DNA from: Verrucomicrobia bacterium LW23 | GTDB lineage: Bacteria > Verrucomicrobiota > Verrucomicrobiia > Methylacidiphilales > UBA1321 | Length of the DNA stretch: 64,000 nucleotides | NCBI GenBank assembly: GCA_003054695.1 | Contig: QAZA01000053.1 | Coordinates: 126,517 to 190,516, forward strand | Direction: 5' to 3' | Shown here: positions 2,513 through 45,096 of the stretch, piece after piece | Layout: each line of letters begins with the position of its first letter | Numbering within the stretch: the first letter of the stretch is position 1 | Program-made: the position numbers and the translations under genes | Notes under the pieces: generated by a model | What the model saw: the letters and a program-made list of their open reading frames with translations, nothing else | Told to the model about the DNA's origin: nothing | Databases searched by the model: none

Positions 2513-2553
2513 ACTGGGGGGCTCGCCGGTCCTCAACCGCCCGCCCGCCCCAG

Positions 2554-4185
2554 ATGACATCGCCCGATTCCTCCGCCTCCGCCGTCCCGCCCACCCCGCG
2601 CAACGCAACTGCCTCCGCAGGAAAAGCTTACCTAGTTGGTGCCGGCCCGGGGGACCTCGGCCTCGTCACCCTGCGCGCGCGCGACCTCATCGCCCGCGCG
2701 CAGCTCGTCATCTACGACTACCTGTGCAACCCGGAGATGCTCCGCTGGGCCCCCCCGGGCGCCGAGATCCTCTACGCAGGCAAAAAAGCCAAAGCCCACA
2801 CCCTCACGCAGGATCAGATCAACGACGCCCTGGTGCAAGCCGTGCGCGCCGGCAAACTCGTCGTGCGCCTTAAAGGCGGCGATCCCTACGTCTTTGGGCG
2901 TGGCGGAGAGGAGGCGGAAGCCCTTTACGCGCAGGGGCTTGCGTTCGAAGTCGTGCCCGGCGTCACCTCCGCCGTCGCCGCCCCGGCCTACGCAGGCATC
3001 CCCATCACTCACCGCGACCACGCCAGCGCCGTCATGTTCATCACCGGCCACGAGGACCCCACCAAGGAGACCTCGTCGCTCGACTGGCCCCTGCTGGCCC
3101 GCTTTGCCGGCACACGCGTCTTTCTCATGGGCGTGGAGCGCTTACCGATTATCACGCAAAGACTTATAGACGAAGGCGCGGCGCCCGATACCCCCGCCGC
3201 GCTCGTCCGCTGGGGCACCACGCCGCGCCAGGGCAGCCTCGCCGGTACACTCGCCACTATCGCCGCGTTGCGCGAGCAGCACGACTTCCGCCCCCCCGCC
3301 ATCCTCGTCGTCGGCGGCGTCGTTGCCTGCCGCGCCGCCTTGGGCTGGTTCGAGCGCCGCCCGCTCTTCGGCCGCCGGGTCGTCGTCACCCGCACCCGCG
3401 AGCAGGCCAGCGCCCTCTCGGATCTCCTCCGCGAGCGCGGCGCAGACGTCCTGGAAATCCCCACCATCCGCACCGTCGCCGCCACGCTGAGCACGGCGGA
3501 AACCGCCTGGCTGGCCGGGTGGAAATCCGGCGTCGAGAAGCCGCACTGGCTTGTGTTTACAAGCCCCAACGGCGTCGAGTATTTCATGCGCTCCTTCCTG
3601 GCCTGCGCAGGCGGCGACATCCGCGCCCTGCAAGGCATCCGCATCGCCTCCGTCGGCCCGGGCACCACCAAAAAGCTGGCGGCTTACTATATAAGTGTGG
3701 ACCGCCAGCCCGAAACGTTTACGGCCGAGGCGCTCGGCTGCTGCTTCGCGCCGGACGAGGTGCGCGGCAAACGCATCTGCCTGGCACGCGGCAACTTAGC
3801 CAATCCGGAGCTCCCCGCCGCCCTGCTCGCCGCCGGCGCCGCCGAGGTGCGCGGGCTTACCGTCTACGAGACAAGCCCCGCCCCGGCGGCCGCCGCCGAC
3901 AGTGACTCGCCCATCCCCGACGCCCGCGCCCGTTTCGAGGCCGAGGGCGCCCACTTCATCGCCTTTGCCAGCAGTAGCGCCGCGGAGAGCTGGGCGGCTC
4001 TAAACCTTGCGCCGCAAGGGGATGCGCCCATTCCACGCGCCATCAGCATCGGCCCGGAAACCAGCAAAGCCCTCCGCAAACTCGGCATCGAGATCGCCGC
4101 CGAAGCCCAGTCCTCCACCGTCGCCGGCCTCTCCGATGCCGTCTGCGCAGCGGCGAATATAAGTGGCTGTAGTCAAACAAGTTAA
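2554..4185 (+). CDS. cobA-hemD: Uroporphyrinogen-III C-methyltransferase fused to uroporphyrinogen-III synthase
   Basis: This is a bifunctional protein of 543 residues. The N-terminal half (about 25 to 265) is a SAM-dependent uroporphyrinogen-III methyltransferase that makes precorrin-2. Visible motifs are LVGAGPGDLGLVTL, VVRLKGGDPYVFGRGGEE, VVPGVTSAVAAPAYAGIP and MFITGHE. The C-terminal half (from about 269, GRRVVVTRTREQ) is uroporphyrinogen-III synthase (HemD fold), which cyclises hydroxymethylbilane; VFTSPNGVEYF and the final SIGPETSKALRKLG block are typical. The fusion places the branch-point enzyme and the first siroheme/B12-branch enzyme on one chain, as known from several phyla. It is the last gene of the heme operon; a large palindrome follows at 4211. 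Confidence 0.95.
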   Translation: MTSPDSSASAVPPTPRNATASAGKAYLVGAGPGDLGLVTLRARDLIARAQLVIYDYLCNPEMLRWAPPGAEILYAGKKAKAHTLTQDQINDALVQAVRAGKLVVRLKGGDPYVFGRGGEEAEALYAQGLAFEVVPGVTSAVAAPAYAGIPITHRDHASAVMFITGHEDPTKETSSLDWPLLARFAGTRVFLMGVERLPIITQRLIDEGAAPDTPAALVRWGTTPRQGSLAGTLATIAALREQHDFRPPAILVVGGVVACRAALGWFERRPLFGRRVVVTRTREQASALSDLLRERGADVLEIPTIRTVAATLSTAETAWLAGWKSGVEKPHWLVFTSPNGVEYFMRSFLACAGGDIRALQGIRIASVGPGTTKKLAAYYISVDRQPETFTAEALGCCFAPDEVRGKRICLARGNLANPELPAALLAAGAAEVRGLTVYETSPAPAAAADSDSPIPDARARFEAEGAHFIAFASSSAAESWAALNLAPQGDAPIPRAISIGPETSKALRKLGIEIAAEAQSSTVAGLSDAVCAAANISGCSQTS

Positions 4186-4210
4186 ACTCTTTTTTGGATT
4201 TCCGCTCGTC

Positions 4211-4345
4211 TCCCTTTGCGACCTTCGCGCCCTTTGCCTCCTCTGTGCGATATACCTATTCGTATTGCCGTACAAAACCGTGCGGCAATACGTTGTGGTA
4301 TTTTCGCGCAGAGGACGCAAAGGGCGCGAAGGTCGCAAAGGGGGG
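4211..4345. repeat. Large imperfect palindrome (MITE/REP-like) after the heme operon
   Basis: Two arms of about 40 bases, 4211 to 4250 and 4305 to 4345, are inverted copies with only about two to four differences. They carry the ccctttgcgaccttcgcgcc motif. Inside lies a second perfect 10-base pair of arms (4261 to 4270 and 4283 to 4292), and the bases between the two sets also pair in part (atacc at 4253 with ggtat at 4297). The whole segment can therefore fold into one hairpin of about 135 bases. It lies between cobA/hemD and ribD, so it may act as a terminator, but the architecture is that of a dispersed palindromic element. Confidence 0.8.
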
Positions 4346-4462
4346 AGTTGAGAAGGGAGGGACGCTTTACAGCCTTGGTATTGTGGAGGAGGTGGTAAAC
4401 TTTCCGCCCCGGACGTAGCGAATTTTACTAAGATAAAGTCTTTTTAATACTTTTTCCCATTC

Positions 4463-5569
4463 ATGGAGCTGGATTTACAAACGATTGCTACGCAGCGGGA
4501 TAGGGAGATGATGCGGGAGGCTTTGCGGCTTGCGGCGCTGGGTGGCGGTTATACCAGCCCCAATCCCAGGGTGGGGGCGGTTGTCACGTCGCCGACGGGG
4601 GAGGTTTGGGGGAGTGGGTGGCATCGGAAGGCGGGGGCGGGGCATGCGGAGGTGAACGCGGTGCGGAACGCGAAGGAGCGGGGGCACGCAAATTTGTGTG
4701 GCGCAACCATTTATGTGACTCTGGAGCCGTGCTGCACGCATGGCCGTACGCCGCCGTGCACGGATCTTATTCGGCGCGAAGGATTTGCGCGCGTGGTGGT
4801 GGCGGCGGTGGATCCGAATCCTGCACATGCCGGGCATGGACTGGAGATTCTGCGCGAGGCGGGGATTCACGTGGAGAGCGGCCTTTTTGCGGCCGAAAGC
4901 GAGTGGCTTAACCGCGATTTCAACCACTTTATGCGCAACGGGTTACCGTGGGTAACCGCTAAAATGGCGCTCAGCCTCGACGGCTCCATCGCCCCGCGCC
5001 CCGGCGACTCGCCATGGATCACCTCCGCCCCCGCCCGCACCCGAGCCCACGAGCTGCGCCACCTTAGCGACGCGATTATCGTCGGCGCCGGCACGGTCCG
5101 CACGGATAACCCCAGGCTGACCATCCGCCTTCCCTCAGCCACGCCGGCTGGCCCAGAGGAACCGATGATAAAGCTTCAGCCCTGGCGCGTCGTCCTTACC
5201 CGCTCGGCGGCATTTGGCGAGAGTGCGGGGACGCAAGGCGTTGGTTATCATGTTTTTACAGATGAGTTCCGCGCCAGGACTCTTGTCATGCGCAACGCAT
5301 CGCCGCGCGACATCCTGACGGATCTCGCCGCGAGAGGAGTCCGCAACGTCCTTCTTGAAGGCGGCAGCCAGGTTCACGGCGCTTTCTTTGAGGCGGGCCT
5401 GGTGGACGAGGTGGCGTTTTTCATCGCGCCTGTGATCCTGGGGACGGCCAGCCCCGCTGTTGTTGCTAAATCGATGCCTCGCGTGAATCTGCATCAGGTT
5501 CGCTGCGAACAACTTGGACCGGATATGTTGATGACGGGGCTAATCCGGCCCATCTCCCATGCAAGCTGA
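4463..5569 (+). CDS. ribD: Bifunctional riboflavin deaminase/reductase
   Basis: RibD deaminates and then reduces the pyrimidine intermediate of riboflavin synthesis, in the cytoplasm. The N-terminal deaminase domain (about 14 to 150) has the CDA-type zinc site: His61-Ala-Glu63 in GHAEVNAV, and Cys90 and Cys99 in EPCCTHGRTPPC. TSPNPRVGAVV near residue 31 is diagnostic. The reductase domain starts at about 160 (VTAKMALSLDGSIA) and includes the NADPH-binding region around IIVGAGTVRTDNPRLTIRL and the LLEGGSQVHGAFF motif. The length of 368 is normal. The gene stands alone, flanked by two large palindromes, without other rib genes in view. The first half uses more G-ending codons (ggg, gcg) than the second. 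Confidence 0.95.
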   Translation: MELDLQTIATQRDREMMREALRLAALGGGYTSPNPRVGAVVTSPTGEVWGSGWHRKAGAGHAEVNAVRNAKERGHANLCGATIYVTLEPCCTHGRTPPCTDLIRREGFARVVVAAVDPNPAHAGHGLEILREAGIHVESGLFAAESEWLNRDFNHFMRNGLPWVTAKMALSLDGSIAPRPGDSPWITSAPARTRAHELRHLSDAIIVGAGTVRTDNPRLTIRLPSATPAGPEEPMIKLQPWRVVLTRSAAFGESAGTQGVGYHVFTDEFRARTLVMRNASPRDILTDLAARGVRNVLLEGGSQVHGAFFEAGLVDEVAFFIAPVILGTASPAVVAKSMPRVNLHQVRCEQLGPDMLMTGLIRPISHAS

Positions 5570-5584
5570 GCTTAGACCCATTAT

Positions 5585-5726
5585 CGGAATAAACCGGTAC
5601 ATTGGCGGGACGCTTTTGAGCGAGTGCGGCGTTGAGTCTTCGGTCATGCATTTTTCAAATGCACTCCCTTAGCCTCGCCTTGCCCTCATCTCAAAATCGC
5701 CTCTACCAATGTACCGGTTTATTCCG
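5585..5726. repeat. Palindromic element between convergent ribD and helicase genes
   Basis: The 21 bases at 5585 to 5605 recur exactly as an inverted copy at 5706 to 5726. The bases inside are partly complementary as well (for example gcatttttcaaatgc near 5647), giving a long hairpin of about 140 bases. It sits between two convergent genes and could terminate both. Its loop shares the word atgcactccct with the palindrome at 14873, which suggests a common family. Confidence 0.8.
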
Positions 5727-5736
5727 ACAATTGGTC

Positions 5737-7884
5737 TTACAACACGGGCAGACGATGGGAGACGGCTTTCATCTGGTCGGCGGGAATAGTGGGGAGGTCG
5801 GGGAGGCCCTGGGCTTCCCAGGGGGCAAGCTCGGCTTTGCAGATGGACTGAAGTTGTTGCCAGCGAGGGACTTCGGGGAACTGCTCGCCGTGGGCGATCT
5901 GGCGGAGGAGGGAGCGCCACTCGATCAGCAGGCGGTCGACGTCGCCACGGCGCACGTGCTCGTCCAGCGCGGCTTCGGGGACGTTGCGGCGCACTGTTTG
6001 GGCAGGGCGGGAGCCACCGCCGCGCATCAGGCGCAGCATTTCCGCCCCGCCGGCGCCGTAGTTGATGGGGATCCCGTCCTGCAGAAATCCTTCGTAGCTG
6101 AAGCGTTTGTATGCTTTGCCGCAGGCCAGGGCCAGGCGGCCGGACCATCGGCTTTCGTCGCCCGCAAAGCGCTCGCCGGCGGCGAGGTTGGCGAAGTCGA
6201 GGACCATATCCTCCAGCGGGTAGGTGGCGTCCTCTACGGCGGCGGCAACGGCAAGTCCCTCCGGCCCAACGAATTGTGAGACGATGCGGCCGCGCTGGGT
6301 GATGAGCAGGTCGCGATCGAGCAGGCCGAGGCGGTTCCAGAGCCACAGGAGTGTGGGTTTGGGATCGAGCGCGAGGCAGGCGTCGCGGTGCGTGCAGGTG
6401 AGGCAGAAGGGCGCGGGGTTGCGGTCGCGGCGGACGAGGCGGGCGCGGGCGGTATCGGTTAACAGCTTGCAGGGCAAGGGCTTGGGCAGGGGCGCGGTGG
6501 CTTCGATGCCGAGCGGGATGATGTCCGTGGTAAAGAGGCGGCGCTGGTACTCGGGCGCCGCGGATTCGATCGGCACGCCAAGGGCCAGCTGGCGCAGCAG
6601 GGGGCGCCAGGGCAGGGGGGCGGCGCGGCGCAGGGTGGCGGGCCGGGCCTGGCCCATGCGCGGAGATGACTCGGTGACAAGGACATAGCCCTGGTCGTCC
6701 AGCCCGCGGCGTCCGGCGCGTCCAAACATTTGGAGCAGGTCGGACGGGGTGACCTCGCGGGGGAGGCCGCCGGCGGTGAAGCTGGTGCCGGTGACAAGCA
6801 CGCTGCGCAGGGAGAAGTTGACGCCGGCCGAGAGGCCGAGGGTGGCGACGACGACGCGGAGTTGCCCCGCTTTGGCGAGGGGCTCGATAAGGCCGGCGCG
6901 CTGGGCGTAGCTGAGGCCGCTGTGGTGGTAGGCCACGCGCGAGGCAAGTAACTTGCTAAGTTGCGGCCCCGCAACAAGTTGCTGCTCCGGCGTCAGGCGC
7001 AGGGGGTGGGGGCAGGGGATGTCCCGCGCGGCGCCTGCGGCGAGGTTTTCGGCAGCTTTGCGGTGGGGGGCGAAGACGAGGATGGGGCCGAGGTCCTCGC
7101 GCAGGGCGGCGGCAAGGCGGCGCGACCAGTGGCCGGCGATGCGGGCCGGGATGCGGTGGCTGGGGCCGTCGATGTCGGTTTCCTCGAGAGGGACGGGGCG
7201 CTCCTTGACGGTAATGAGCCGCGCGTTGCGGCCCAGGCGGGCGAGCCATTGCCGCACGGCGTCTGGGTTGGCCACACTGCCGCTGAGGAGCAGCAGCTGC
7301 GTGGTGGCGGGCAGGGACATGAGGACGCCCTCGTAGTGGTTGCCGCGGATGGGATCGCCGAGCCACTGGTACTCGTCTACCACGTAAAGTGTTGCGGCTG
7401 TGGGGGATTGCTGGCTCTCCAGGGTGGCGACAACCAGGGGTGCGTCAGGGTTGGCCACCAGATCGCCCGTGGTGATGCCGACGCGCCAGCCTTTGCGCAG
7501 CCACTCGGCGTACTTGTCGTTGGCCAGGGCGCGGGTGGGGGTGGTGAAGATGATCTGACGACGCGCGTGGGTGGGGAGGCGGGGCCCGGCGGTGGAGGAC
7601 GAGGACGAGGAGGGCGCCGCGCTTGCGCCGCCGCCGCTTTGGCGGGACTGGAGGTAGAACTGCTCGAAGATATATGTTTTGCCCGCGCCTGTAGGTGCTT
7701 GCACTACAACGTCTTGCCCGTCGCGAAGCGCACGGATCGCCTCCGCCTGCCAGGCATCCGGCAATCGCAATGTGTGGAGTGCGTCCCAGGATGTGGCGGG
7801 CTCGGCCGTGGCGCCGGAGAGGGCTGTCGCAAGGCTTCCTGCCGCAGGCATCCGGGCGCGATCGCGATCGTGGAAGGGAGGCAT
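5737..7884 (-). CDS. Ski2-like superfamily 2 helicase
   Basis: A DEAD/DEAH-type helicase of about 716 residues. Visible motifs in order: Walker A VQAPTGAGKTYIFEQF; motif Ia TTPTRALANDKYAEW; Walker B VVDEYQWLGDP; motif III LLSGSVANP; then, in the second RecA domain, AYHHSGLSYAQRAGLIEPL, VVATLGLSAGVNF and the motif VI block QMFGRAGRRGLDDQGY. The ATLGLSAGVNF plus GRAGRRG combination is that of the Ski2-like group, which act on RNA or structured DNA. The open frame extends upstream to 8313, but that part is a Pro/Ser-rich shadow of the gene on the right. I therefore choose the ATG at 7884, just ahead of the helicase fold. A Ser/Ala-rich linker lies between Walker A and motif Ia. Confidence 0.88.
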   Translation of the reverse strand: MPPFHDRDRARMPAAGSLATALSGATAEPATSWDALHTLRLPDAWQAEAIRALRDGQDVVVQAPTGAGKTYIFEQFYLQSRQSGGGASAAPSSSSSSTAGPRLPTHARRQIIFTTPTRALANDKYAEWLRKGWRVGITTGDLVANPDAPLVVATLESQQSPTAATLYVVDEYQWLGDPIRGNHYEGVLMSLPATTQLLLLSGSVANPDAVRQWLARLGRNARLITVKERPVPLEETDIDGPSHRIPARIAGHWSRRLAAALREDLGPILVFAPHRKAAENLAAGAARDIPCPHPLRLTPEQQLVAGPQLSKLLASRVAYHHSGLSYAQRAGLIEPLAKAGQLRVVVATLGLSAGVNFSLRSVLVTGTSFTAGGLPREVTPSDLLQMFGRAGRRGLDDQGYVLVTESSPRMGQARPATLRRAAPLPWRPLLRQLALGVPIESAAPEYQRRLFTTDIIPLGIEATAPLPKPLPCKLLTDTARARLVRRDRNPAPFCLTCTHRDACLALDPKPTLLWLWNRLGLLDRDLLITQRGRIVSQFVGPEGLAVAAAVEDATYPLEDMVLDFANLAAGERFAGDESRWSGRLALACGKAYKRFSYEGFLQDGIPINYGAGGAEMLRLMRGGGSRPAQTVRRNVPEAALDEHVRRGDVDRLLIEWRSLLRQIAHGEQFPEVPRWQQLQSICKAELAPWEAQGLPDLPTIPADQMKAVSHRLPVL

Positions 7885-7981
7885 GCTGGCTGCAGCGTAG
7901 CACAGCTGCGGCGGTTTGTCATGGCCGGCTTTTGTCGCCTCGCTTTTTGCGCCTGGCTTGACTTCTGGCGCCTGGCGCGGG

Positions 7982-10321
7982 CTACATCTCCACCCCGGTA
8001 ACCTGTGCGATGGCTGCGGCGGTGATGCGCAGGAAGGTGTCGGGCGCGATTCCCAGCCAGATGATAAAGACGAGCAGGGGGGCGAGGGCGGCGGCTTCGC
8101 GGGCGGTGAGATCGCGGGCGATTGCCTCGCTGTCGCCGGAGGTGGGGAGGGCGGAGGCGGTGGCGGCCGGGATGGCGGCGGCGGAGGGCGCGCGCGCGGC
8201 GAGGGGGCTGCCGGGTGGGCCGTGGAAGAGCACGTGCACGGCGTTGAGCATGTACCAGGCGGTGGCGAACAGCGCGGGCGCGACGGCGAGCGTCCACCAC
8301 GGCGCCAGGGCAAAGGAGCCGGCCAGCAGCGTTACCTCGGCGCTGAATCCCGCCAGGAAGGGCAGCCCGACGGACGCCATGGCGAGGACAAAGAAGACGC
8401 CGAAGAGACGGGGATGCGTGGCGCGTAGCCCGGTGACGTCGGGTGGCGCGGAGCCTGGTTGGCCCATCGCGTCGCCCATCCATACGGCGCCGGGATTGGC
8501 GGGCGGGGGTGGAGCGAGGGGGGCATCCGCTGCGCCCGAGGCGGGGGATGTGGTTGTGGCGCTGAAGGTTGCGAGCGCTGGGCTCTGAGCGGCGACGGAG
8601 GCTGAAGCGGAGGAGGGCGAAGGCGTGGCTGCAAGGTTTGCGCCGGGGGCCGGGCTATGGCCTACGGTGAGGGGCGTCCCGGCGGCGGTGGTGCTGGTGG
8701 CGGCGAGGAGTTGCCGGGCGTGGGCGCGGCTTTCGATCATGCCCACGCACAGGAAGAGGCCCGCGGAGATGAGGCCATGCGCAAACATCTGCAGCACAGC
8801 GCCTTGCAGGGCCAGGGCGCGCCAGTGGCCGTCGCTGAAGCCGAACGCGGTGGCGGCGGCATGGGCGGCGGTGTGCGCGGGCGACCACATTTCGGTCGCA
8901 GCCGTCATGGCCAGGAAGCACAGGGCCACGTGGCTTAGGGAGGAGTAGGTGAGCATCGTTTTGAGGTCGCGCGCGTGCCAGGCGGCGAGGGCGCCGATGA
9001 GCACGGTGGCCACGCTCATGGCGTAAATCCAGCCGCTGCCGGCGCGGATTTCCGCGGGGAAGAGCGGCAAGGCCAGCAGGAGAAATCCGTAGACGCCGAG
9101 CTTGCTGAGCAGGGCGGAGAGGATCGCGGCGACCGGCCCCGGCGCCTGCGTGTAGGCATCGCGCTGCCATACGGAGAACGGGAAGAGGGGCGCTTTGACG
9201 AAGAGGCCGAGGCAGATGCCGGCCAGCACCCAGGCGCTCGCCTCGGCGCCAAGTTCGGAGCGCAGGGTTCCGGCGTTCGCCAGGTCGGCAAGCTCGCGGA
9301 GATTCATGGTGCCGGTGCGCACATAGATGTACTGAAACGCGAGGAGCAGGAAGACGCTGCCGCCGATGGACCACAGGATAAAGCTGGTGGAGGCGAAGTC
9401 GCGCCGATGCCCGCCGTACAGCTTGATGAGGAAGTACGCGGGAATCAGACTCACCTCCCAAAACACGTACCAGTGCACAAAATCCTGCGCGGTAAAGGCG
9501 CCAAACAGGCAGGTAAACTGGGCCAGCAGCAGCACCAGGTAGAGGCGATTGCCGTGAAGCGAGGCGGGCGATGTCCAGACGCTGATGGGCGCGATAAGGG
9601 CGCACAAAAAGACCATGAAGGCGTTGAGGCCGCCGAGCGCCACGTGGTAGTGCACGCCGATCGTGGGTATCCAGTCGTACTGCTCCACAAACATGTAAAG
9701 AGGCGGCGGCTGCGGGAGGACGAGCGGGCCGTGGGCTTCGCGGAGAATCGCGGTGTGATCCGGATAAGCAGGGGCGGCCGCGCGAGCGGGGGGCGCTGGC
9801 GGGGCGGGGTTGGTGACGCCTGGGAGGGGAGCCGGGGTAGCCTCGGGAGCCGGCGCCGGGGGGGGCGTGGGCACGAGCGCGGGCGATGTCGGCACGGCGG
9901 GCGGGGAGACGGGCTGCGCGACTGGAGGCGAGGCGGGCGGCGCGGAGTTGGTAACGCTTTGCGGCGCAGCGGCTTCCGGCAGCGGCGCTGGAGATGGTGC
10001 GGGGGCAGGAGATGGCGCTGGCGCGGGCTCCGCCGAGGGCAGGGAGGCCTGGTCGGTCTGCCCAGGGGTGAGCGCGGCCACGCGGGCACGAGCGCCGCCG
10101 TGTGATCCTCCGCCTCCCTCCGCGGCGGCCGGGCGGAAGTTGATGTAAATATCACTGCGCCAATGGGCTATGGCGTAGCTTCGCACGGCCGTCCCCGCCA
10201 CGCAAAACGCTGCCGTTGCGGCCACCAGGGCGATAGCTCGCGCCCAGTGCGCACGCGATGCGGGCAGCAGCGCAATCAGCACAGCCCCCGCCAGCGGCAA
10301 AAACGTAAAGAGGGTAATCAT
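7982..10321 (-). CDS. NuoM-like proton-pumping NADH dehydrogenase subunit with two long low-complexity inserts
   Basis: This is a membrane subunit of the NuoM (antiporter-like) family of complex I. The hallmark TM5 glutamate is in FWEVSLIPAYFLIK (about Glu289) and the TM7 lysine in VKAPLFPFSVW (about Lys376); the TQAPGPVAAILSALLSKLGVYG block is also typical. The length of 779 is far above the usual about 500. A Pro/Ala/Ser-rich stretch of about 140 residues (64 to 205) separates TM2 from the canonical WIPTIGVHYHVALGGLN entry to TM3. A second of about 90 residues (540 to 632) interrupts the loop after GMIESRAHARQ. No other nuo gene is next to it, so it may belong to a split operon or a second module. 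Confidence 0.88.
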   Translation of the reverse strand: MITLFTFLPLAGAVLIALLPASRAHWARAIALVAATAAFCVAGTAVRSYAIAHWRSDIYINFRPAAAEGGGGSHGGARARVAALTPGQTDQASLPSAEPAPAPSPAPAPSPAPLPEAAAPQSVTNSAPPASPPVAQPVSPPAVPTSPALVPTPPPAPAPEATPAPLPGVTNPAPPAPPARAAAPAYPDHTAILREAHGPLVLPQPPPLYMFVEQYDWIPTIGVHYHVALGGLNAFMVFLCALIAPISVWTSPASLHGNRLYLVLLLAQFTCLFGAFTAQDFVHWYVFWEVSLIPAYFLIKLYGGHRRDFASTSFILWSIGGSVFLLLAFQYIYVRTGTMNLRELADLANAGTLRSELGAEASAWVLAGICLGLFVKAPLFPFSVWQRDAYTQAPGPVAAILSALLSKLGVYGFLLLALPLFPAEIRAGSGWIYAMSVATVLIGALAAWHARDLKTMLTYSSLSHVALCFLAMTAATEMWSPAHTAAHAAATAFGFSDGHWRALALQGAVLQMFAHGLISAGLFLCVGMIESRAHARQLLAATSTTAAGTPLTVGHSPAPGANLAATPSPSSASASVAAQSPALATFSATTTSPASGAADAPLAPPPPANPGAVWMGDAMGQPGSAPPDVTGLRATHPRLFGVFFVLAMASVGLPFLAGFSAEVTLLAGSFALAPWWTLAVAPALFATAWYMLNAVHVLFHGPPGSPLAARAPSAAAIPAATASALPTSGDSEAIARDLTAREAAALAPLLVFIIWLGIAPDTFLRITAAAIAQVTGVEM

Positions 10322-22855: not shown

Positions 22856-24469
22856 CTACTTGGAGGCGCCGACGGCTGCCGTTTCGGCCCCCATGCGCTC
22901 CGTATTCGCGCGGCCAGGTAACGGCAGCAGGCCCATACCTGCCAAGGAGAGAGTTGCAATGTAGCTAAACCCAACAGCGTGAAGGGCTAGCGTAACCAGC
23001 CATTGATAGAGCCCATAGTGCAAGGCAACAAGTGTGGCGGCAATGTAGGCCAGGGCCAGGGCAGCCTCAATGGCGACCAGGATGTTTTGCCTGGGGCTGC
23101 TGTAGACGGTGCGATCGACGACGGCCGTACGGGTGCTTCGACCTCGCCCAACAAGGGCAAGCTTGGGCGTGCGCACGAATTCAAACGGGTGGCGGAAAAA
23201 GCCTTCAATAACTGCGACGGCATTGTTGACGGACATGCCGATGGTGGCCGACATGTAGAAGGGGATGAGGCCTGTCGCAACTAATTTATCCTGAGGAAGT
23301 TGCGTAATCACCGCCACGATAAAACTCAAGGATGCCAGCGCCGCGGCGGAGAATGTGAGGACCAGCCACTGCGGCATAGCAAAGTGGCCGGTGGCAACCA
23401 GGGCGAAAGTAAGGAGATTCAGCAACGCAAATGCGGCAATGATGACGTGTATGCTGTAACCCATAAAGTGCATAAGCGCCTCCATTTTATGAGCGGGTGA
23501 TACAGGCTCGCGCATGATGCGGGGGATGAGCTTCAGGGCCGTTTGAACGGTACCGCGGGCCCATCGGCGCTGCTGGGCCTTGAAGCCGAAGACATCCGGC
23601 GGAACTTCCCCTGGCGCAACGGTTTGCGGCGCGAAACGAAAACGCCAGCCGCGCAGCTGCGCGCGGTAACTCAGGTCCAGATCCTCGGTCAGCGTGTCGT
23701 CGTGCCAGTTGCCGGCATCAATAATGCATGCCTTGCGCCAGATTCCGGCGGTGCCATTAAAGTTAAAAAACAGGCCGCGCGCCTGGCGGGAGACTTGCTC
23801 GACAAGAAAATGGCCGTCGATGAGGAACGCCTGCACGCGGGTGAGCAGGCTGTACTCGTGGTTAAGGTGGCCCCAGCGCGCCTGCACCATGCCGACCTTG
23901 TCGGAGTTAAACAACGGCAACAGGTTACGCAGAAAGTCGCGATCGGGGACAAAGTCGGCGTCAAAGATGGCGATGAACTCGCCCCGGGCGGTTTCCAAAC
24001 CCTCGCGCAGCGCGCCGGCCTTGAAGCCCTGACGGTGCGAGCGGTGAATGTGCTTGATCGCAACACCTTGTGCAGCAAGCTCTTCCGTTACGCGCGAGCT
24101 GATGCGTACCGTGTCGTCGGTGGAGTCGTCGAGGAGCTGGATTTCGAAGCGATCGCGCGGGTAGTCGAGAGCCGAGGCGGCTCGGGCCAGGCGTTCAACC
24201 ACGTGGCGCTCGTTATAAACGGGAAGCTGGACGGTGACGAAGGGGAGGGAGGCGGGATTGGAGAAATCGGGAGGAGGAAGGCTTTGAGCATCAAAGGTTT
24301 GGCGACTATTGCGGAACCACGGCATGCCGGCCAGCATAACAAGGCGGTGGAGGCTGTGGAGAACCAGCAGGACGGCCAGGACGATATAGATAGCCAGGAG
24401 AAAGAGTTGCATTAATCTTGTTGGAATAGATGTGCCGGGAACGTTCGACTTTTTATAGGTAGGCCGCAA
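22856..24469 (-). CDS. Processive family 2 glycosyltransferase (cellulose synthase/mannan synthase-like)
   Basis: A 537-residue membrane GT2. An N-terminal membrane helix (LFLLAIYIVLAVLLVLHSL) precedes the cytosolic GT-A domain. The domain has FVTVQLPVYNERHVVERL, LLDDSTDDT, the DxD-type FDADFVPD, the base motif TEDLDLSYR and the processivity motif QQRRW. Several C-terminal helices follow (for example VIIAAFALLNLLTFALVATG). The layout matches CslA-like mannosyl- or glucosyltransferases that polymerise and export a polysaccharide. The ATG at 24469 gives a 19-residue leader before a second Met at 24412, which could also be the start. It diverges from the kinase/Thg1 pair. Confidence 0.88.
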   Translation of the reverse strand: MRPTYKKSNVPGTSIPTRLMQLFLLAIYIVLAVLLVLHSLHRLVMLAGMPWFRNSRQTFDAQSLPPPDFSNPASLPFVTVQLPVYNERHVVERLARAASALDYPRDRFEIQLLDDSTDDTVRISSRVTEELAAQGVAIKHIHRSHRQGFKAGALREGLETARGEFIAIFDADFVPDRDFLRNLLPLFNSDKVGMVQARWGHLNHEYSLLTRVQAFLIDGHFLVEQVSRQARGLFFNFNGTAGIWRKACIIDAGNWHDDTLTEDLDLSYRAQLRGWRFRFAPQTVAPGEVPPDVFGFKAQQRRWARGTVQTALKLIPRIMREPVSPAHKMEALMHFMGYSIHVIIAAFALLNLLTFALVATGHFAMPQWLVLTFSAAALASLSFIVAVITQLPQDKLVATGLIPFYMSATIGMSVNNAVAVIEGFFRHPFEFVRTPKLALVGRGRSTRTAVVDRTVYSSPRQNILVAIEAALALAYIAATLVALHYGLYQWLVTLALHAVGFSYIATLSLAGMGLLPLPGRANTERMGAETAAVGASK

Positions 24470-24605: not shown

Positions 24606-24635
24606 TTGACTTTGTATGGCACGGGTGTGTACAAT
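24606..24635 (+). promoter_or_regulatory. Sigma-70-type promoter of the kinase/Thg1 pair
   Basis: ttgact (24606 to 24611) and tacaat (24630 to 24635) with an 18-base spacer are close to consensus. Transcription would start near 24642, about 17 bases before the ATG at 24659. This is the best promoter match I found in the window and implies the pair is expressed on its own. Confidence 0.6.
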
Positions 24636-24658
24636 TCGTAAAGAATTGAGCAGCAGCT

Positions 24659-25117
24659 ATGAAGATCGCGGAGCTCGAACTGGTCTTGTTGATCGGCCTG
24701 CAGGCATCGGGGAAGTCGACGTATTGTCGGGAGCATTTCTATGCAACGCATGTACGGCTCAATCTTGATATGCTCCGAACAAGGCACCGAGAGCGCGTTT
24801 TATTTAAGGCCTGCCTGGAAGGGAAGGCGCGTGTTGTTATTGATAATACAAATCTGACTCAGGAAGATCGCGCACGATATATCGTTCCGGCAAAAGCAGC
24901 CCATTACACAGTGCGAGGCTACTTTATGCAGTCACGGCTGGAGGAGTGCCTGCGTTATAATAAGGAGAGAAAAGGAGATGCCTGTATTCCCGATTCGGCT
25001 ATTGCTATGTCATCGCGAAAACTTCAACTCCCATTATGGGAAGAAGGATTTGATACGCTTTACTTCGTACGAAAGTTGGAAGGCGGGGGCTTTGTTACGG
25101 AGGACTGGAAGCCATGA
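24659..25117 (+). CDS. P-loop kinase of the polynucleotide kinase type
   Basis: This 152-residue P-loop protein has the Walker A motif LIGLQASGKSTYCREHF at residue 11, then LNLDMLRTRHRE (an Asp at the place of the catalytic base of T4-Pnk-like kinases), VVIDNTNLTQEDRARYI (the strand-2 DNTN motif of polynucleotide and related small kinases), and an Arg-rich lid region RLEECLRYNKERKG. The family phosphorylates 5'-OH ends of nucleic acid, though zeta-toxin-like or tRNA kinases share the fold. It is short and has no phosphatase or ligase domain. Its stop codon overlaps the start of the Thg1-like gene by four bases (atga), so the two are translationally coupled. Local GC is lower than in the genes to the left. 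Confidence 0.8.
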   Translation: MKIAELELVLLIGLQASGKSTYCREHFYATHVRLNLDMLRTRHRERVLFKACLEGKARVVIDNTNLTQEDRARYIVPAKAAHYTVRGYFMQSRLEECLRYNKERKGDACIPDSAIAMSSRKLQLPLWEEGFDTLYFVRKLEGGGFVTEDWKP

Positions 25118-25896
25118 GATTTGATGATCTGGATAAAGAGATGCGAGTGTACGAGACGGGACATGATCTCTACGTGCTTCCCGGCGTATGGATGGTGGCT
25201 CGCATTGACGGGCGCAGCTTTACGCGGCTGACGAAAGAGGTGCATCGCTTTGAAGCACCGTATGATGCGCGCTTTCGCGATATGATGGTGGCGACGGTGG
25301 AGCACCTGATGCAGTGCGGCTTTCGGGTGGCTTATGGCTATACGCAAAGCGATGAGATATCGCTTCTTTTCCATAGAGACGGAGCGCTGTTTGAACGAAA
25401 GATCCGCAAATACAACTCTGTGCTCGCGGGGGAAGCAAGTGCTGCTTTTTCGCTGAAGCTGGGCGGCGTGGGATGCTTTGACTGCAGAATCTCTGAGCTT
25501 CCTTACGCAGGCAAGGTGAGGGAGTACTTTATGTGGAGAGCAGAGGATGCAACGCGCAATGCACTTAACAGCCATTGCTACTGGCTATTGCGTAAGGAGG
25601 GCAAGTGCTTTAAGGACGCTACCGCGATGCTGGATGGAGCCACCGTTTCCTCCAAGCACGAGCTCCTGTTCTCGCGCGGTATTAACTTTGCGGAGTTACC
25701 GCTTTGGCAGCGGCGGGGCATTGGACTTTACTGGAGAGACTTTTTGAAAGAAGGGTACAACCCAAAGAAGGATCGTGCGGTAACATCTGTACGTCGCCGT
25801 ATCTACACGGATCTGGAGTTGCCGATGAAGGGGGAGTACGAAGAGTTTCTGGGCCAGCGCCTGCGCGAGGCGGGCGCGGACAGCGTGGCCGGCTGA
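25114..25896 (+). CDS. Thg1-like 3'-to-5' RNA polymerase (tRNA-His guanylyltransferase family)
   Basis: This 260-residue protein has the hallmark metal-binding motifs of the Thg1 family: VARIDGRSFTRLTKEV near residue 28 (first Asp) and AYGYTQSDEISLLFHRD near residue 75 (the Asp-Glu pair). RFRDMMVATVEHLMQCGF between them is the usual helix. The later region RNALNSHCYWLLRKEG replaces the eukaryotic HINNLYNT motif, which is what bacterial and archaeal Thg1-like proteins show; those add nucleotides to truncated tRNA 5' ends in a template-dependent way rather than making G-1 on tRNA-His. The ATG overlaps the upstream kinase stop. A 5'-phosphorylating kinase beside a 5'-end polymerase fits RNA repair. 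The gene converges with infB. Confidence 0.88.
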   Translation: MRFDDLDKEMRVYETGHDLYVLPGVWMVARIDGRSFTRLTKEVHRFEAPYDARFRDMMVATVEHLMQCGFRVAYGYTQSDEISLLFHRDGALFERKIRKYNSVLAGEASAAFSLKLGGVGCFDCRISELPYAGKVREYFMWRAEDATRNALNSHCYWLLRKEGKCFKDATAMLDGATVSSKHELLFSRGINFAELPLWQRRGIGLYWRDFLKEGYNPKKDRAVTSVRRRIYTDLELPMKGEYEEFLGQRLREAGADSVAG

Positions 25897-25987: not shown

Positions 25988-28084
25988 TTAAAGGGCCTGC
26001 GTCACTTTCTCCAGCTGGTAACACTCGATGATGTCGTCAACCTGGTATTCGTTGAAGTCGCCGAGGCGGACGCCGCACTCGAGGCCGGCACGTACTTCGC
26101 TCGCTTCGTCCTGGAAGCGTTTGAGGGCGACGACCTGGCCGTCGTAGATGGGTTGGCGGCGGCGCAGCACGCGGGCCCGTGCATTGCGCACGATGCGGCC
26201 GTTTTGCACAAGGCAGCCTGCGACGGGGAATTTGCTGAGCGCAAACACTTGCTTCACGATGATGGTGCCGAGCTGCGACTCGCGCAGTTCGGGGTCGAGC
26301 ATGCCGATCATGGCGTCGCGCACCTGGTCGATGAGCTCGTAGATGATGGAGTAGAGCTTGATCTGCACGTCCTCGCGCTTGGCGGCGTTGGCGGCGGCGT
26401 TGTCCGTTTTGGTGTTGAATCCGATGACGACGGCATCCGACGCTTTGGCCAGCAGGATGTCGGACTCGGAGATCGGGCCGACGGCCTGGTGAATAATTTC
26501 GAGGTCGATCTTTTTGCTCTGGATTTTGCGCAGAGAGGCGGCGACGGCTTCGACGGAGCCCTGCACGTCGCCCTTAAGGATGATGTTGAGGACCTTCTTG
26601 TCCTTGTCCTTCAGGGAGTTAAGCAGATCTTCCAGGCGCACACGGGGGCCGGTTTCCAGCTTGCCCAGGCGCAGTTTGGCGGCGCGTTCCTCGCCCAGCT
26701 CGCGCACTTCGCGCTCGGTCTTCATCACCACAAGTTCTTCGCCCGGGTTGGGGGCGCCGTTGAGGCCGATGATTTTGACGGGGATGGCGGGGCCGGCTTC
26801 CTTGGTGGGTTTGCCGATGTCGTTGACAAGGGCGCGCACTCGGCCGTAGTAGGGGCCGACGATGATGTTGTCGCCGGTGCACAGGGTGCCGCTTTGGACG
26901 AGGGCGGTGGCGGTGGCGCCGCGGCCTTGTTCAAACTGGGCCTCGATAATGGTGCCGCGGGCGGGTCCTTTCGGATTTGCCTTCAGCTCAAGGAGTTCCG
27001 CCTGCAGCAGCATCATTTCCAGCAGGTGGTCGATACCGAGCCGTTTGGTGGCGGAAACTTCGCAGAAGATGGTATCGCCGCCGTAGTCTTCGGGCACGAG
27101 GCCTTGTTCCTGCAGCTGCGCCTTCACCTTCAGGATGTTCGCGGCCGGCAGATCTATCTTATTGATAGCGACCATGATGGCCACTTTGGCGGCGCGGGCG
27201 TGGCTGAGGGCCTCCAGCGTCTGCGGCATCAGGCCGTCATCGGCCGCGACGACGAGCACGACGATGTCCGTGATGTTGGCGCCGCGGGCGCGCATGCTCG
27301 TAAAGGCTTCGTGGCCAGGGGTATCCAAAAAGGTTATGGTCTGGTCCTTAACCTTGATGGTGTAAGCGCCGATGTGCTGGGTGATGCCACCCGCCTCGCC
27401 GGCGGCCACGCGTGCGGAGCGCAGGGCGTCGAGCAGCGAGGTTTTGCCGTGGTCCACGTGGCCCATGAAGGTGATGACCGGCGGGCGCGGCTCGAGGAGG
27501 TCGGTGGGAGTGGGTTCGGGCTTCGGGGGCTCCACGACCTTAACGGGGGCGTGCACCTGGCCGGCGCCTTTTTCGCGCTTTTCCACCTCAAAGGTCCAGC
27601 CCATGCGGGTGCAGACTTTGCGGGCGGTTTCTTCGTCGATGGCGCCTTTGGGGCCGACGAATATGCCGATTTCCATCAGCTCATGCACCAGGTTGTGCGG
27701 CTTGAGATTCATTTTGGCCGCCAGGTCGCTTACGACCAGGGGCGGCTTCATCATCACAATCTTGGCGTTGGGATCGACCGCGCGCACGGGCAGATCAACC
27801 GCGGCCTTCTCGGGCGCTGGCTCTGGGGCGGGGGTTGCGGCGGGCGGCGCTTTGGTGATGGGCGGCTTGGCGCCGACTCCACCGGCGGGCGCCGGGCGTT
27901 GCACGGGACGGCCGGAGCTGGGCGGCACGTAGTTGGACTGCACCGCGCGCTGGTAGTTGGGCAGGGGGCGGGGAGCTGTCGTTTCGCCGGGGCGCTGGTA
28001 CGCACCGCGTACGGGGCCGACGTTCCCCTGGGGGGGGACGGGCTTTGGGTTAAATCGGTTAGCTCCCTTTTTATCTTTCGACAT
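25988..28084 (-). CDS. infB: Translation initiation factor IF-2
   Basis: IF-2 is the GTPase that brings initiator tRNA to the ribosome. The 698 residues comprise a short Pro/Ala-rich N-terminal region (about 1 to 105), an IF2_N motif ([21 protein letters not shown]), then the G domain with [18 protein letters not shown] (G1), [13 protein letters not shown] (G3) and AINKIDLP (G4), followed by the OB-type and C-terminal tRNA-binding domains ([42 protein letters not shown]). The N-terminal extension is shorter than in enteric IF-2. It follows nusA by 61 bases on the same strand; rbfA and truB are not downstream. Confidence 0.97.
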
Positions 28085-41658: not shown

Positions 41659-42222
41659 ATGAGCTTGCTCTTGCCCTCCATATCTCCAGAACTGACGACA
41701 GGGTACATCCCCTGGGATATTTTGCTTGCGCAAGAGTGTTTCTCGGCAAACTGCGGTCCTATTTCTTTTGCTACGGCCGTAAGGGAAGAGATCACGGATG
41801 TCATCAGGCATTTTCCCAATTTCCCAGCTAGGTCTCATACTACCTTCCGTGACATGTGCCGTGCTTGTCGTGACTACGGGTGCACATTTGAAGTGGTGCC
41901 TCGAACCCTGCCCACAAGTGGCGTTGCACTTGTTCAGTGGCTTGGACCCTGGATTGAAAAGGACTTTCGAGGACGTAAGAGCCTTCAGCATACCCACTGG
42001 ATTGCAGTGGCCGGCGACTGGTGCTTCGATCTAAATCACACAGATTGGACCAGGGTATCCTTCTGGGAAAATTCTATTGCTGTAGAGCTGATGAATGATC
42101 ATTGCGGCGCTTTCGGCTGGCAAGTTAAATACGGAATTGAAATTCAAGCGAAGGACAATTCTTGCTCGTCGGGGATGCGGCGGTCGATTTTCGGCGGCTT
42201 AGGAGGGCGCGAGGACTTTTGA
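41659..42222 (+). CDS. Putative cysteine peptidase-like protein
   Basis: This 187-residue cytoplasmic protein is not known to me by name. The arrangement QECFSANCGPISFATAV near residue 27, which looks like the catalytic Cys on a helix start of papain/C39-like folds, and HTHWIAVAGDWCFDLNHTDW about 85 residues later (His on a strand, then Asn/Asp) suggest a papain-like peptidase or transglutaminase fold. It converges on and overlaps by 79 bases the end of the DUF4417-type gene, as expected if the two came together recently or are co-maintained. It could be an effector. GC is well below that of the backbone. Confidence 0.55.
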   Translation: MSLLLPSISPELTTGYIPWDILLAQECFSANCGPISFATAVREEITDVIRHFPNFPARSHTTFRDMCRACRDYGCTFEVVPRTLPTSGVALVQWLGPWIEKDFRGRKSLQHTHWIAVAGDWCFDLNHTDWTRVSFWENSIAVELMNDHCGAFGWQVKYGIEIQAKDNSCSSGMRRSIFGGLGGREDF

Positions 42223-43253
42223 ATACGTTCCATGTATTGCGGGTAGAGTTTAATGTTGTCAGCTAGTATGCCTTCGATAGACATTCCATTGAGTAACAAG
42301 GTTTTTTTCCATTTCAGCAAGCCCTTGTTGTCATAGACCAAGGCTTCCCTATGCGTAGCTGCCATGAACGGTTTTGAATCCATGATACTAAAGCTGGGGA
42401 AAAGTGCCTTTGCTGTGTTATGGAATCTTGCAGCTCCAATTAGTATCGGATGTATAGCCTTTCCCAAAATTTGTTGTAAATCTGCCAGTGATTTAATTTC
42501 CTTTTCATTCGATCCAGTCTGAAATTCTTTGGCTACAATAGTTATTTCAGGATGTTCCATAAGGAATCTGGCCCATGTATCCCAATGCTGATCACGGAAT
42601 GCGTTTAAATGAAGAACAGGCGGAATACCTGCATTACTAAATCGTTCTGCTGTTAATATTATTCGCTTAATATTGCGCAGCACGTGAAAGCCCGTCATGT
42701 CTGTAAAAAGTGAGTAATTGGGGCAAGTTACAAGATCTATATTTAACAATTTGAGCGACGCGGGAAGTGCATACTTAAGATGATTTTTCCAAAAATTTTC
42801 TATATGCCTGTCTTGATCACATCCCACTAATACAATCTTCGTATTTGCGGAAATTCTAAAATAGTCTTCCAACTCGGCACGCGACTTAAAATTACAACCC
42901 CTAAAATTCCCCTTTTTAGAGATGAACAATTGATGCAAAGGAATAGCCACCCATGGCACATTTTTGAGTAAGCCATTTCGAGAAACACCGTCGTGAATTT
43001 TAGGAATATATCTCGGAAGCACTTCAGCACTCATGCCCTTGATAGTGGTATGACATCCCATGTCCAAGAGCCCTCCCACATCGTCCCATTTCTTCCAGAA
43101 TTCATCAGAAAGTCTGGGATCCATGTTAGGATCCTTCGGATGGGGTTTTCCGCTTGGGATGCAGCCCATTTTATCAAGAGCGGGAAGCCCTGTCCCACCA
43201 CATTGGGAGTAGACAATGCACTCAGCGCATGAGTTTGGGACCAGACTATTCAT
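42144..43253 (-). CDS. DUF4417-like protein, fourth gene of the GHKL/STAS operon
   Basis: From the ATG at 43253 the protein has 369 residues; the frame also extends to a TTG at 43319. The N-terminus has clustered cysteines (NSCAECIVYSQCGGTGLP). The middle reads NIDLVTCPNYSLFTDMTGFHVLRNIKRIIL, then AGIPPVLHLNAFRDQHWDTWARFLMEHPEITIVAKEFQTG, which matches what I know of DUF4417 proteins (often phage or island encoded). Function is unknown; the layout suggests a barrel. It starts 1 base after the upstream stop, so it is translationally coupled. It is AT-rich compared with the genes at either side of the island. Confidence 0.72.
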   Translation of the reverse strand: MNSLVPNSCAECIVYSQCGGTGLPALDKMGCIPSGKPHPKDPNMDPRLSDEFWKKWDDVGGLLDMGCHTTIKGMSAEVLPRYIPKIHDGVSRNGLLKNVPWVAIPLHQLFISKKGNFRGCNFKSRAELEDYFRISANTKIVLVGCDQDRHIENFWKNHLKYALPASLKLLNIDLVTCPNYSLFTDMTGFHVLRNIKRIILTAERFSNAGIPPVLHLNAFRDQHWDTWARFLMEHPEITIVAKEFQTGSNEKEIKSLADLQQILGKAIHPILIGAARFHNTAKALFPSFSIMDSKPFMAATHREALVYDNKGLLKWKKTLLLNGMSIEGILADNIKLYPQYMERIQKSSRPPKPPKIDRRIPDEQELSFA

Positions 43254-43254
43254 T

Positions 43255-43632
43255 TTAGTTGAGCGCCACCCAAAAGGTGCCGCAAAAATCGGGAGGTTGC
43301 TCAATCCTTCCTGGATCAACTCTGCCGTGGGGAGCTGTTGCCAAATCAGGGCGGATTTCCTTCAGGATTTCCATTCCTTCTTCGCTAACAGTGCCGATAC
43401 ATTTTGCATCGAGATAAATCTCAACCTTGCCAAGGTTTCGATTGAATAGGTGAATACGAGCTTCTGCCTGAATTTGTTCAGATGAACCACTAGCTGTGCA
43501 TTCTATCAGTATGACGTCCCGGTTGGACTTGGTACCGGTCAACAAGTCCGGTGTCAGGATTTCCTCCTCCATCACAGTAGCTGTACTTTCCTCAAACTTC
43601 TTAAATTGCTTGCGACGTTTGCCTTCTCCCAT
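43255..43632 (-). CDS. Hypothetical protein of the GHKL/STAS operon
   Basis: This 125-residue protein is not recognised. It has a basic N-terminus (KRRKQFKKFEES), then ILIECTASGSSEQIQAEARIHLFNRNLGKVEIYLDAKCIGTVSEEGMEILKEI. This could be another small alpha/beta domain of the STAS/anti-sigma-antagonist kind, but no phospho-site motif is visible. Its ATG shares a base with the stop of the preceding gene (taatg), and the next gene starts one base after its own stop, so the order is fixed by coupling. Confidence 0.6.
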   Translation of the reverse strand: MGEGKRRKQFKKFEESTATVMEEEILTPDLLTGTKSNRDVILIECTASGSSEQIQAEARIHLFNRNLGKVEIYLDAKCIGTVSEEGMEILKEIRPDLATAPHGRVDPGRIEQPPDFCGTFWVALN

Positions 43633-44243
43633 TAGATGTTCCTCCGTGAATGAGTTTGGTATATCCAGTTTCTTGCCACTCGCTTGCGAGCGGCTAACCT
43701 AAGCTTTGAAAGTGTAACCAACCGGTTGTTCCAAGTTGTCTGCCCAGAGCAATTGCTGGGGTACTTTTCGAACAGATCAGCAGCTGTAGCTGGCCCATGC
43801 GAATCCAGAATCTTCAAGCTTTCAGAAACAGCTTTTTCAAGCCTTCCGGTCCATACATAGTCTGAGTCTTCTGGCTCTTTGGATGTACGGATTGCAATCC
43901 CGCGGCCGGCAAAGTACTCAGAAAGTTCTGTTTCCAGATCTTCTGACGATACCCCTACGAATGCAGGAGCAATATTTTCGTGGATGTCCCCCCCGCGTCC
44001 ATCTACAGCAAAAAATGGGGAGAGAAACTCACGGAGGAAGCTGGAAGAAACTGTCTCGACGGCCGAAAGGTCAATTCGGACCAAGTCGCCTTCAATCGTG
44101 TTTAAGTTAGAGGCTAAAATCTCGTCCGTAGTTAACTTCCTAAGAGCGTCAGCTGCTTTTTGTCCGGAAATGCTTCCGGCTAAAATTGTGGTGTTGCCGC
44201 AAATGGCTCTGGTGTTGATGAGCATTGCGACGATCATATTCAT
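43632..44243 (-). CDS. STAS-like (DUF4325-type) protein with C-terminal wHTH-like region
   Basis: This 203-residue protein has an N-terminal half that contains LVRIDLSAVETVSSSFLREFLSPFF, the DUF4325/STAS-like motif in which a Ser sits at the start of a helix after a 'V-x-S-S-S-F' turn; STAS-like proteins of this kind partner GHKL ATPases encoded next to them. The C-terminal part (SLKILDSHGPATAADLFEKY, TTWNNRLVTLSKLRLAARKRV) looks like a winged helix. It starts 13 bases after the ATPase gene ends. This pairing recalls anti-sigma/antagonist switching, but no sigma factor is near. Confidence 0.72.
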   Translation of the reverse strand: MNMIVAMLINTRAICGNTTILAGSISGQKAADALRKLTTDEILASNLNTIEGDLVRIDLSAVETVSSSFLREFLSPFFAVDGRGGDIHENIAPAFVGVSSEDLETELSEYFAGRGIAIRTSKEPEDSDYVWTGRLEKAVSESLKILDSHGPATAADLFEKYPSNCSGQTTWNNRLVTLSKLRLAARKRVARNWIYQTHSRRNI

Positions 44244-44256
44244 TTCTAAAAATGAA

Positions 44257-45096
44257 TCAACATATTTCTAAGGCTGTTTCGGCTGGAACTCCTCTAAATG
44301 ACACGACAACCGTGATCTGGCTTCCAAATCCTCCCGCTTTCGGGAAAAAATGACGCATCCGTTCTTTTCCTCTTTGCTTTATCTCGACCACGCTGTTCCC
44401 GCTCCGAAGGTATACGAGGCCATTTAGATCGACGAGAGATTGAAACAATTGCTTGTAGCCACCTCCGCTTGTTTCCCCGGGCCGTGAAGTGGCTTCCTTA
44501 TCAATGACGGCCTGCAATGCGTCTTGCTCTCGCTGTAAGGATTTCCAATGGGGCAATTTCTTAAGCGAAGCCAGGAAACCCATTCCAACATCGGCGACCG
44601 AAAATGTAAGCACTCCATCTCGAACATGGTAACCTGCGAGGGCGCTACATGGGGCACCCTCCAAGAATGCGTGCCAGGGCACGTTGTCCGCCATTTCCCA
44701 CAGGGTTCGTGCCAAAGCTTTTACGACCTTGCCCTTACTTTCATTCGAAGCACAAATTCTAAACCGATCCAGAAATCGCAGCCATTCATCCCTCACAACG
44801 TCGTCTTTGGATAAAATGGGCCAGACTCCATAGGAAGTATGCGTAAACTCGCGATCCGCGTTTAAAGTCGATCCAAGATTGTAGTATTCCTCCACAAAAC
44901 TATACGATGCAAACGACGGCATCTCCTCTTTGCCGTCGGTTACCTGCTTCATCCGGAGCCGATTAAGGCAAAGTGTGTACCATAAAGCCGTCGCCAAAGT
45001 AAAATTCTGGCCCTTCAGTACTTCATCAATACTTTGCGCAGTCCCCGATTCCAGGATCTTAGTGAGGTTAACAATTGCGGGATTTCCGAGAAGCAT
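44257..45096 (-). CDS. GHKL (histidine-kinase-like) ATPase, first gene of the operon
   Basis: This 279-residue protein has the C-terminal half of a GHKL ATPase: N box LARTLWEMADNVPWHAF (Glu and Asn), G1 box VADVGMGFLASLKK and G2 region SGGGYKQLFQSLVDLNGLVYL. No His phosphorylation domain or receiver is present, so it is not a classical sensor kinase. GHKL ATPases without kinase partners bind and hydrolyse ATP in switch or effector roles. It opens an operon of four closely spaced genes. GC is clearly below that of the flanking backbone, consistent with transfer. Confidence 0.8.
   Translation of the reverse strand: MLLGNPAIVNLTKILESGTAQSIDEVLKGQNFTLATALWYTLCLNRLRMKQVTDGKEEMPSFASYSFVEEYYNLGSTLNADREFTHTSYGVWPILSKDDVVRDEWLRFLDRFRICASNESKGKVVKALARTLWEMADNVPWHAFLEGAPCSALAGYHVRDGVLTFSVADVGMGFLASLKKLPHWKSLQREQDALQAVIDKEATSRPGETSGGGYKQLFQSLVDLNGLVYLRSGNSVVEIKQRGKERMRHFFPKAGGFGSQITVVVSFRGVPAETALEIC

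Follow-up and report, generated by a model that had tools for sequence, protein, structure and literature searches.

Two genes on the plus strand of the window, by which the whole stretch of 64,000 nucleotides analysed here is meant, encode a small P-loop kinase and a Thg1-like protein (TLP), the stop codon of the first overlapping the start codon of the second (Table 1). Both ORFs and their overlap had been described in a first-pass annotation made from the sequence alone, and they are present as described there, as are the motifs that it had reported, with GLQASGKST and DNTN found in the translation of the kinase and RIDGRSF and QSDEIS in that of the TLP. On either side the neighbour is a minus-strand gene, glycosyltransferase-like on the left (22856-24469) and infB on the right (25988-28084), and the pair must therefore be transcribed separately from both. 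The near-consensus promoter offered earlier as evidence that the pair forms its own unit does not carry that weight. The TTGACT-18-TACAAT site at 24606 exists, is the sole such site in 3.5 kb and is plausibly well placed before the kinase ATG; however, shuffled sequences hold a mean of 1.5 such sites, so that its occurrence is no better than chance and the promoter was rejected as an argument for independence. Elsewhere in the window, a stretch of low G+C content (41659-45096) holds a small peptidase-like ORF and, as a pair, an ATPase-like gene (44257-45096) and a STAS-like regulator gene (43632-44243), all named by eye.

Table 1. Coordinates of the kinase/TLP pair in the window, of its motifs and of four-gene loci in other genomes
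Feature	Position	Strand	Remarks
Sigma-70-like promoter candidate, TTGACT-18-TACAAT	24606..24635	+	Weak: one found against 1.5 in shuffles
Kinase ORF	24659..25117	+	ATG at 24659, stop ends at 25117; 152 aa
Walker A, GLQASGKST (residues 13-21)	24695..24721	+	Lys19 in 79/80 relatives
Asp37, putative general base	24767..24769	+	80/80 relatives; aligned with the conserved Asp of mouse PNKP (NRDTL)
Stop/start overlap ATGA, four bases	25114..25117	+	Translational coupling; overlap type kept in 75/80 measured pairs
Thg1-like ORF	25114..25896	+	ATG at 25114, stop ends at 25896; 260 aa
First metal motif, Asp32-Gly33	25207..25212	+	89/89 relatives
Second metal motif, Asp80-Glu81	25351..25356	+	89/89 relatives
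Loci with Hen1-kinase-Thg1-Pnkp	2347-8477 (L029)		Also L027, L032, L045, L046, L057, L059, L066 and L093

The kinase matches the Pfam family AAA_33 (2.4e-15) and gives partial matches, over the kinase region, to the PNKP and Pnkp models TIGR01663 and TIGR04075; it has neither a phosphatase nor a ligase domain. When a profile of 11 kinase relatives was compared with solved structures, the kinase domain of mammalian PNKP ranked first (1.8e-25), followed by the Clostridium thermocellum Pnkp kinase and then by fungal kinases. The AlphaFold model (mean pLDDT 93) has the fold of polynucleotide kinase (PNK) domains: in a Foldseek search of the PDB, ranks 1-8 are all mammalian PNKP and ranks 12-17 are the C. 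thermocellum Pnkp kinase, with seryl-tRNA(Sec) kinase and 6-phosphofructo-2-kinase as remoter matches. The sequence hallmarks of the PNK family (Walker A, conserved Asp, DNTN, lid arginine) are all present in the window protein. Among its relatives, the DNTN box (D62-N65) is kept in at least 78 of 81 and the lid arginine R104 in every one of the 81, Arg71 and Asn101 are nearly or fully invariant across the same 81 kinases, and position 100 is Tyr in the window protein versus Arg in 78 of 81. Asp37 presumably acts as the general base, as is known for the PNK family. The inactive kinase that the first-pass annotation had named as telling against its proposal is thus not what the sequence indicates, the active-site residues being intact and conserved among about 80 relatives. 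Sequence and model together place the protein among the polynucleotide 5'-kinase domains, and activity on RNA 5'-OH ends is predicted.

The second protein has both the catalytic domain and the fold of the Thg1/TLP superfamily. It matches the Pfam families Thg1 (PF04446, 5.4e-32) and Thg1C (PF14413, 3.8e-12) and, among PDB sequences, 5axk (E 7.4e-30), and its predicted model (pLDDT 87) aligns with the TLP structure 5axl over 216 residues (Z 26.4, rmsd 1.5) and with human Thg1 at Z 25.0, compared with about Z 7 for unrelated structures. The nearest structures are TLPs, some of them solved with tRNA. The three metal-binding carboxylates, D32, D80 and E81, are invariant in the TLPs compared (89-90). 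In the alignment, TRNALNSH takes the place of the HINNLYNT of human Thg1, bearing out the earlier statement that this eukaryotic motif is missing; its absence, together with a main tRNA-His gene that already encodes G-1 (see below), rules out a eukaryotic-type Thg1. The protein is instead a TLP, for which 3'-5' RNA polymerase activity is predicted.

If the two proteins work together, the pair should recur in other genomes, as the first-pass annotation had anticipated, and it is indeed kept across phyla. Thg1 is encoded in 11 of 388 genomes of the phylum, and in all 11 a kinase gene runs up to the start of Thg1. Across 84,980 scanned species genomes at least 516 Thg1 loci were detected; the closest 80, with identities of 58-67 percent, are spread over about a dozen phyla, among them Verrucomicrobiota, Bacillota, Cyanobacteriota, Bacteroidota, Myxococcota, Pseudomonadota, Planctomycetota, Acidobacteriota and Chloroflexota. 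The kinase lies directly upstream of Thg1 in 70 of these 80 loci; in the remaining ten it is 560 bp off (one locus), present only as a divergent fragment (one), reduced in our reading of the three reading frames to a remnant (one) or absent at the locus (seven). For two of the closest loci without it at Thg1, a kinase is encoded elsewhere in the genome, and for others none was found. Overlaps between the two genes, measured in 80 pairs, are 11 nt in 51, 4 nt in 12 and 14 nt in 12; of the five pairs that deviate, two seem to do so through errors in ORF calling. An overlap so confined to three lengths is no chance feature. The kinase and TLP trees are correlated (Spearman rho 0.78, 81 pairs; 0 of 999 permutations as high), also after thinning to 35 distant pairs (rho 0.52; again 0 of 999), and the window proteins adjoin the same mixed-phylum neighbours in both trees. 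From the correlated trees, the shared neighbours and the conserved pairing, it follows that the pair is co-inherited and travels as a unit. In the sampled genes of three phages, a Bacillus plasmid and a Pseudarthrobacter plasmid, no kinase was found beside Thg1.

The distribution of this unit is sporadic, and the unit itself probably mobile. The window TLP has no match among 59 genomes sampled from the family and order of its host. Synteny of infB and nusA holds across most of the family, and in ten members neither the kinase nor Thg1 occurs within about 1.5 kb beyond infB, where the glycosyltransferase gene of the window is likewise absent. Absence both in near relatives and beside infB suggests that the pair was acquired by transfer. 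Its G+C content, 53 percent where the window averages 60, is weak as proof of recent transfer, since 14 percent of windows of the same length are as low.

At a majority of loci the pair stands alone, with no third RNA-repair gene adjacent, so that the pair is the basic unit and larger operons are additions to it. The methyltransferase Hen1 lies upstream of the pair in 11 loci, 10 of them cyanobacterial, and in 9 of the 11 Pnkp starts 6-172 bp after Thg1, so that the genes run Hen1-kinase-Thg1-Pnkp; these nine loci belong to cyanobacteria and to one unclassified bacterium. The identity of Pnkp and Hen1 was checked with NCBIfam at two loci, the others being grouped with them by sequence similarity; the two checked Pnkp proteins score 1467 and 1434 bits with TIGR04075, Hen1 of L029 scores 751 bits and that of L032 matches Pfam Hen1_L. 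The L032 operon goes on with RtcA after Pnkp. Rnl-type RNA ligases occur in L019 and L021, the latter also with an HD-kinase, and an ADP-ribosylglycohydrolase occurs in L023. On a Deinococcus plasmid (L154, 3525-8741) the kinase, Thg1, two small ORFs, Hen1 and RlaP follow in a row, and on a Thiodictyon plasmid (L153, 4016-5774) Thg1 overlaps RlaP, with no kinase. Enzymes that add nucleotides at the 5' and at the 3' end thus stand side by side in these two plasmid loci. The Hen1-Pnkp and RlaP contexts favour a repair role and link the pair to the repair of damage by RNA-cleaving toxins.

The same contexts lend themselves to an alternative in which the pair supports ligation: the kinase would supply a 5'-phosphate and the TLP would fill 5' gaps or make 5'-App for a ligase, so as to counter ribotoxins together with Pnkp-Hen1, RlaP or Rnl. 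The four-gene order in cyanobacteria and one other bacterium and the RlaP, Rnl, HD-kinase and RtcA neighbours all point this way, and the App idea was raised in 2010 (PMC2904730). However, such neighbours are found at a minority of loci, Pnkp already has a kinase domain of its own, and the LW23 genome has no detected PF09414 ligase or full-length Pnkp, for which reasons we consider this alternative rather unlikely, although it is the strongest of those weighed.

The RNA ligases of the LW23 genome, for which the first-pass annotation had proposed to look, are represented by two RtcB genes (contig C25, 224831; contig C39, 231205). No RNA ligase of family PF09414 was found in the genome, nor was a full-length Pnkp in an assembly that is 95 percent complete, the partial matches scoring 31.5 and 21.8 bits where the cut-off is 750. 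A Pnkp-Hen1 system in this genome was accordingly rejected, no full Pnkp with kinase, phosphatase and ligase having been detected. RtcB joins 5'-OH ends directly and makes no use of 5'-phosphate ends; since neither a PF09414 ligase nor a full-length Pnkp is found here, the TLP is the only evident user of a 5'-phosphate made by the kinase. A listed anti-phage defence system was also set aside, as neither the kinase nor the TLP matched any PADLOC-DB defence protein at 0.01.

The genome has 55 tRNA matches, and tRNA-His was found with RF00005 and ARAGORN. The main tRNA-His gene encodes G-1 opposite C73, so that Thg1 is not needed for the addition of G-1. A second, low-scoring tRNA-His-like gene (43 bits; L143 65-139, contig C56, about 270347-270418) has an A discriminator and no G-1, and is adjoined by an odd 87-base tRNA-Asn call. 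A tRNA with a stop-type anticodon (tta) lies on contig C17 (163500; L139 71-145). Contig C10 (373111-374000) carries low-scoring tRNAs for Leu, Arg and Trp in a cluster that may derive from a mobile element.

A role for the TLP in the maturation or protection of tRNA-His, through addition or restoration of G-1, with the kinase as an accessory rescuing 5'-OH tRNA-His, would accord with the family name, with eukaryotic precedent and with the second tRNA-His-like gene, which lacks the G-1:C73 pair. Maturation of tRNA-His had also been among the first-pass annotation's own alternatives. The encoded G-1 of the main gene disfavours it, near relatives without a detected Thg1 must manage anyway, and known TLPs favour truncated tRNA over full-length tRNA-His (PMC6471195), so that we regard it as improbable. 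Still less credible is a kinase that acts on a nucleoside, a cofactor or a protein and shares only its regulation with the TLP, because, broad as the P-loop family AAA_33 is and despite the remoter matches to seryl-tRNA(Sec) kinase and 6-phosphofructo-2-kinase, polynucleotide kinases rank first by structure and profile, well ahead of others, and the conserved coupling partner is an enzyme that needs a 5'-phosphate.

The reading we prefer, with a probability of roughly 0.6, is that the kinase and the TLP form a mobile two-gene unit for the repair of RNA 5' ends. Many RNases leave 5'-OH ends. A metal-independent RNase would cut an RNA, most likely a tRNA, leaving such an end, onto which the kinase would move a phosphate from a nucleoside triphosphate; the TLP would then adenylylate the resulting 5'-phosphate and, working 3'-5', replace the nucleotides lost from the 5' end, with the other strand of the acceptor stem as template. 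The coupling of the genes would ensure that both enzymes are produced jointly. Where a genome also encodes an RNA ligase, Pnkp-Hen1 or RlaP, ligation of the restored 5' end could follow; in LW23 the pair probably acts alone in mending 5'-truncated tRNAs. Every computable prediction of the kinase-to-TLP scheme put forward in the first-pass annotation held; joint enzymatic action, the substrates, the order of the steps, a physical interaction and the trigger are inferred. Several observations count against this reading: seven of the 80 closest loci have no kinase at Thg1 and an eighth has only a remnant; Thg1 of the three phages and of the Bacillus and Pseudarthrobacter plasmids has no kinase beside it; Tyr100 of the window kinase is atypical; and most genomes have no further RNA-repair gene next to the pair. 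In addition, RtcB, present here in two copies, would compete with the kinase for 5'-OH ends.

A wider proposal, which we advance only tentatively and think rather doubtful, is that the pair serves bacterial RNA-repair systems as a mobile add-on cassette for rebuilding 5' ends. If so, acting with Pnkp-Hen1, which heals, seals and methylates, and with RlaP, which replaces 3' nucleotides, it would allow nucleotides lost on the 5' side of a ribotoxin cut to be put back ahead of ligation; no such step is described for Pnkp-Hen1 in the literature found. The repair-unit reading also bears on the natural role of bacterial TLPs, as a co-inherited and coupled kinase would make exactly the end that they require. 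Characterised TLPs adenylylate a 5'-monophosphate, then add nucleotides 3'-5' on a template, and favour 5'-truncated tRNA over full-length tRNA-His (PMC6471195; PMC3701042); the biological substrates of bacterial TLPs are described in a review as not settled (PMC6471195).

The repair reading of kinase and TLP is not new, having been published in 2010. Anantharaman, Iyer and Aravind (2010) identified polynucleotide kinase as the most persistent bacterial neighbour of Thg1 and proposed that the kinase makes a 5'-phosphate and the TLP extends from the 5' end, rebuilding damaged RNA; the paper also raised the 5'-App idea, and its Thg1 neighbours include RNA ligase and MACRO (PMC2904730). Its Thg1-PNK neighbourhoods have the same P-loop kinase beside Thg1 and the same division of labour, some with an RNA ligase, whereas the present analysis adds measurements of the overlap, of the co-inheritance and of the contexts with Hen1-Pnkp and RlaP; Hen1 is absent from the main text of the paper. 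The context Hen1-kinase-Thg1-Pnkp is thus added, with no claim to its novelty: the literature search found no paper joining Thg1, Hen1 and RNA ligase, and the RNA-repair review of Burroughs and Aravind (2016) lay outside it. No joint test of kinase and TLP was found in the literature. A jumbo phage paper lists one phage with Thg1 (ORFs 126 and 585), far in numbering from its PNKP and Hen1 (197 and 198).

Among known systems, the archaeal TLP (5axk-5axn) and the Bacillus thuringiensis TLP (4kgk) share the fold and the metal motifs of the window TLP and likewise lack HINNLYNT, with identities of about 35 and 29 percent, respectively, in structural alignment; as far as the literature found shows, both were studied without a partner kinase. 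The window kinase has in common with the kinase domain of PNKP and Pnkp the P-loop, the conserved Asp, DNTN, the NxxR segment and the overall fold, but it stands alone, without a 3'-phosphatase or ligase, and by profile score it is nearer to the mammalian PNKP kinase than to C. thermocellum Pnkp. Finally, the Pnkp-Hen1 and Pnkp1-Rnl-Hen1 systems are described without a 3'-5' polymerase (PMC4411300) and the LW23 genome is without a detected full-length Pnkp, whereas in nine loci elsewhere the pair sits between Hen1 and Pnkp.
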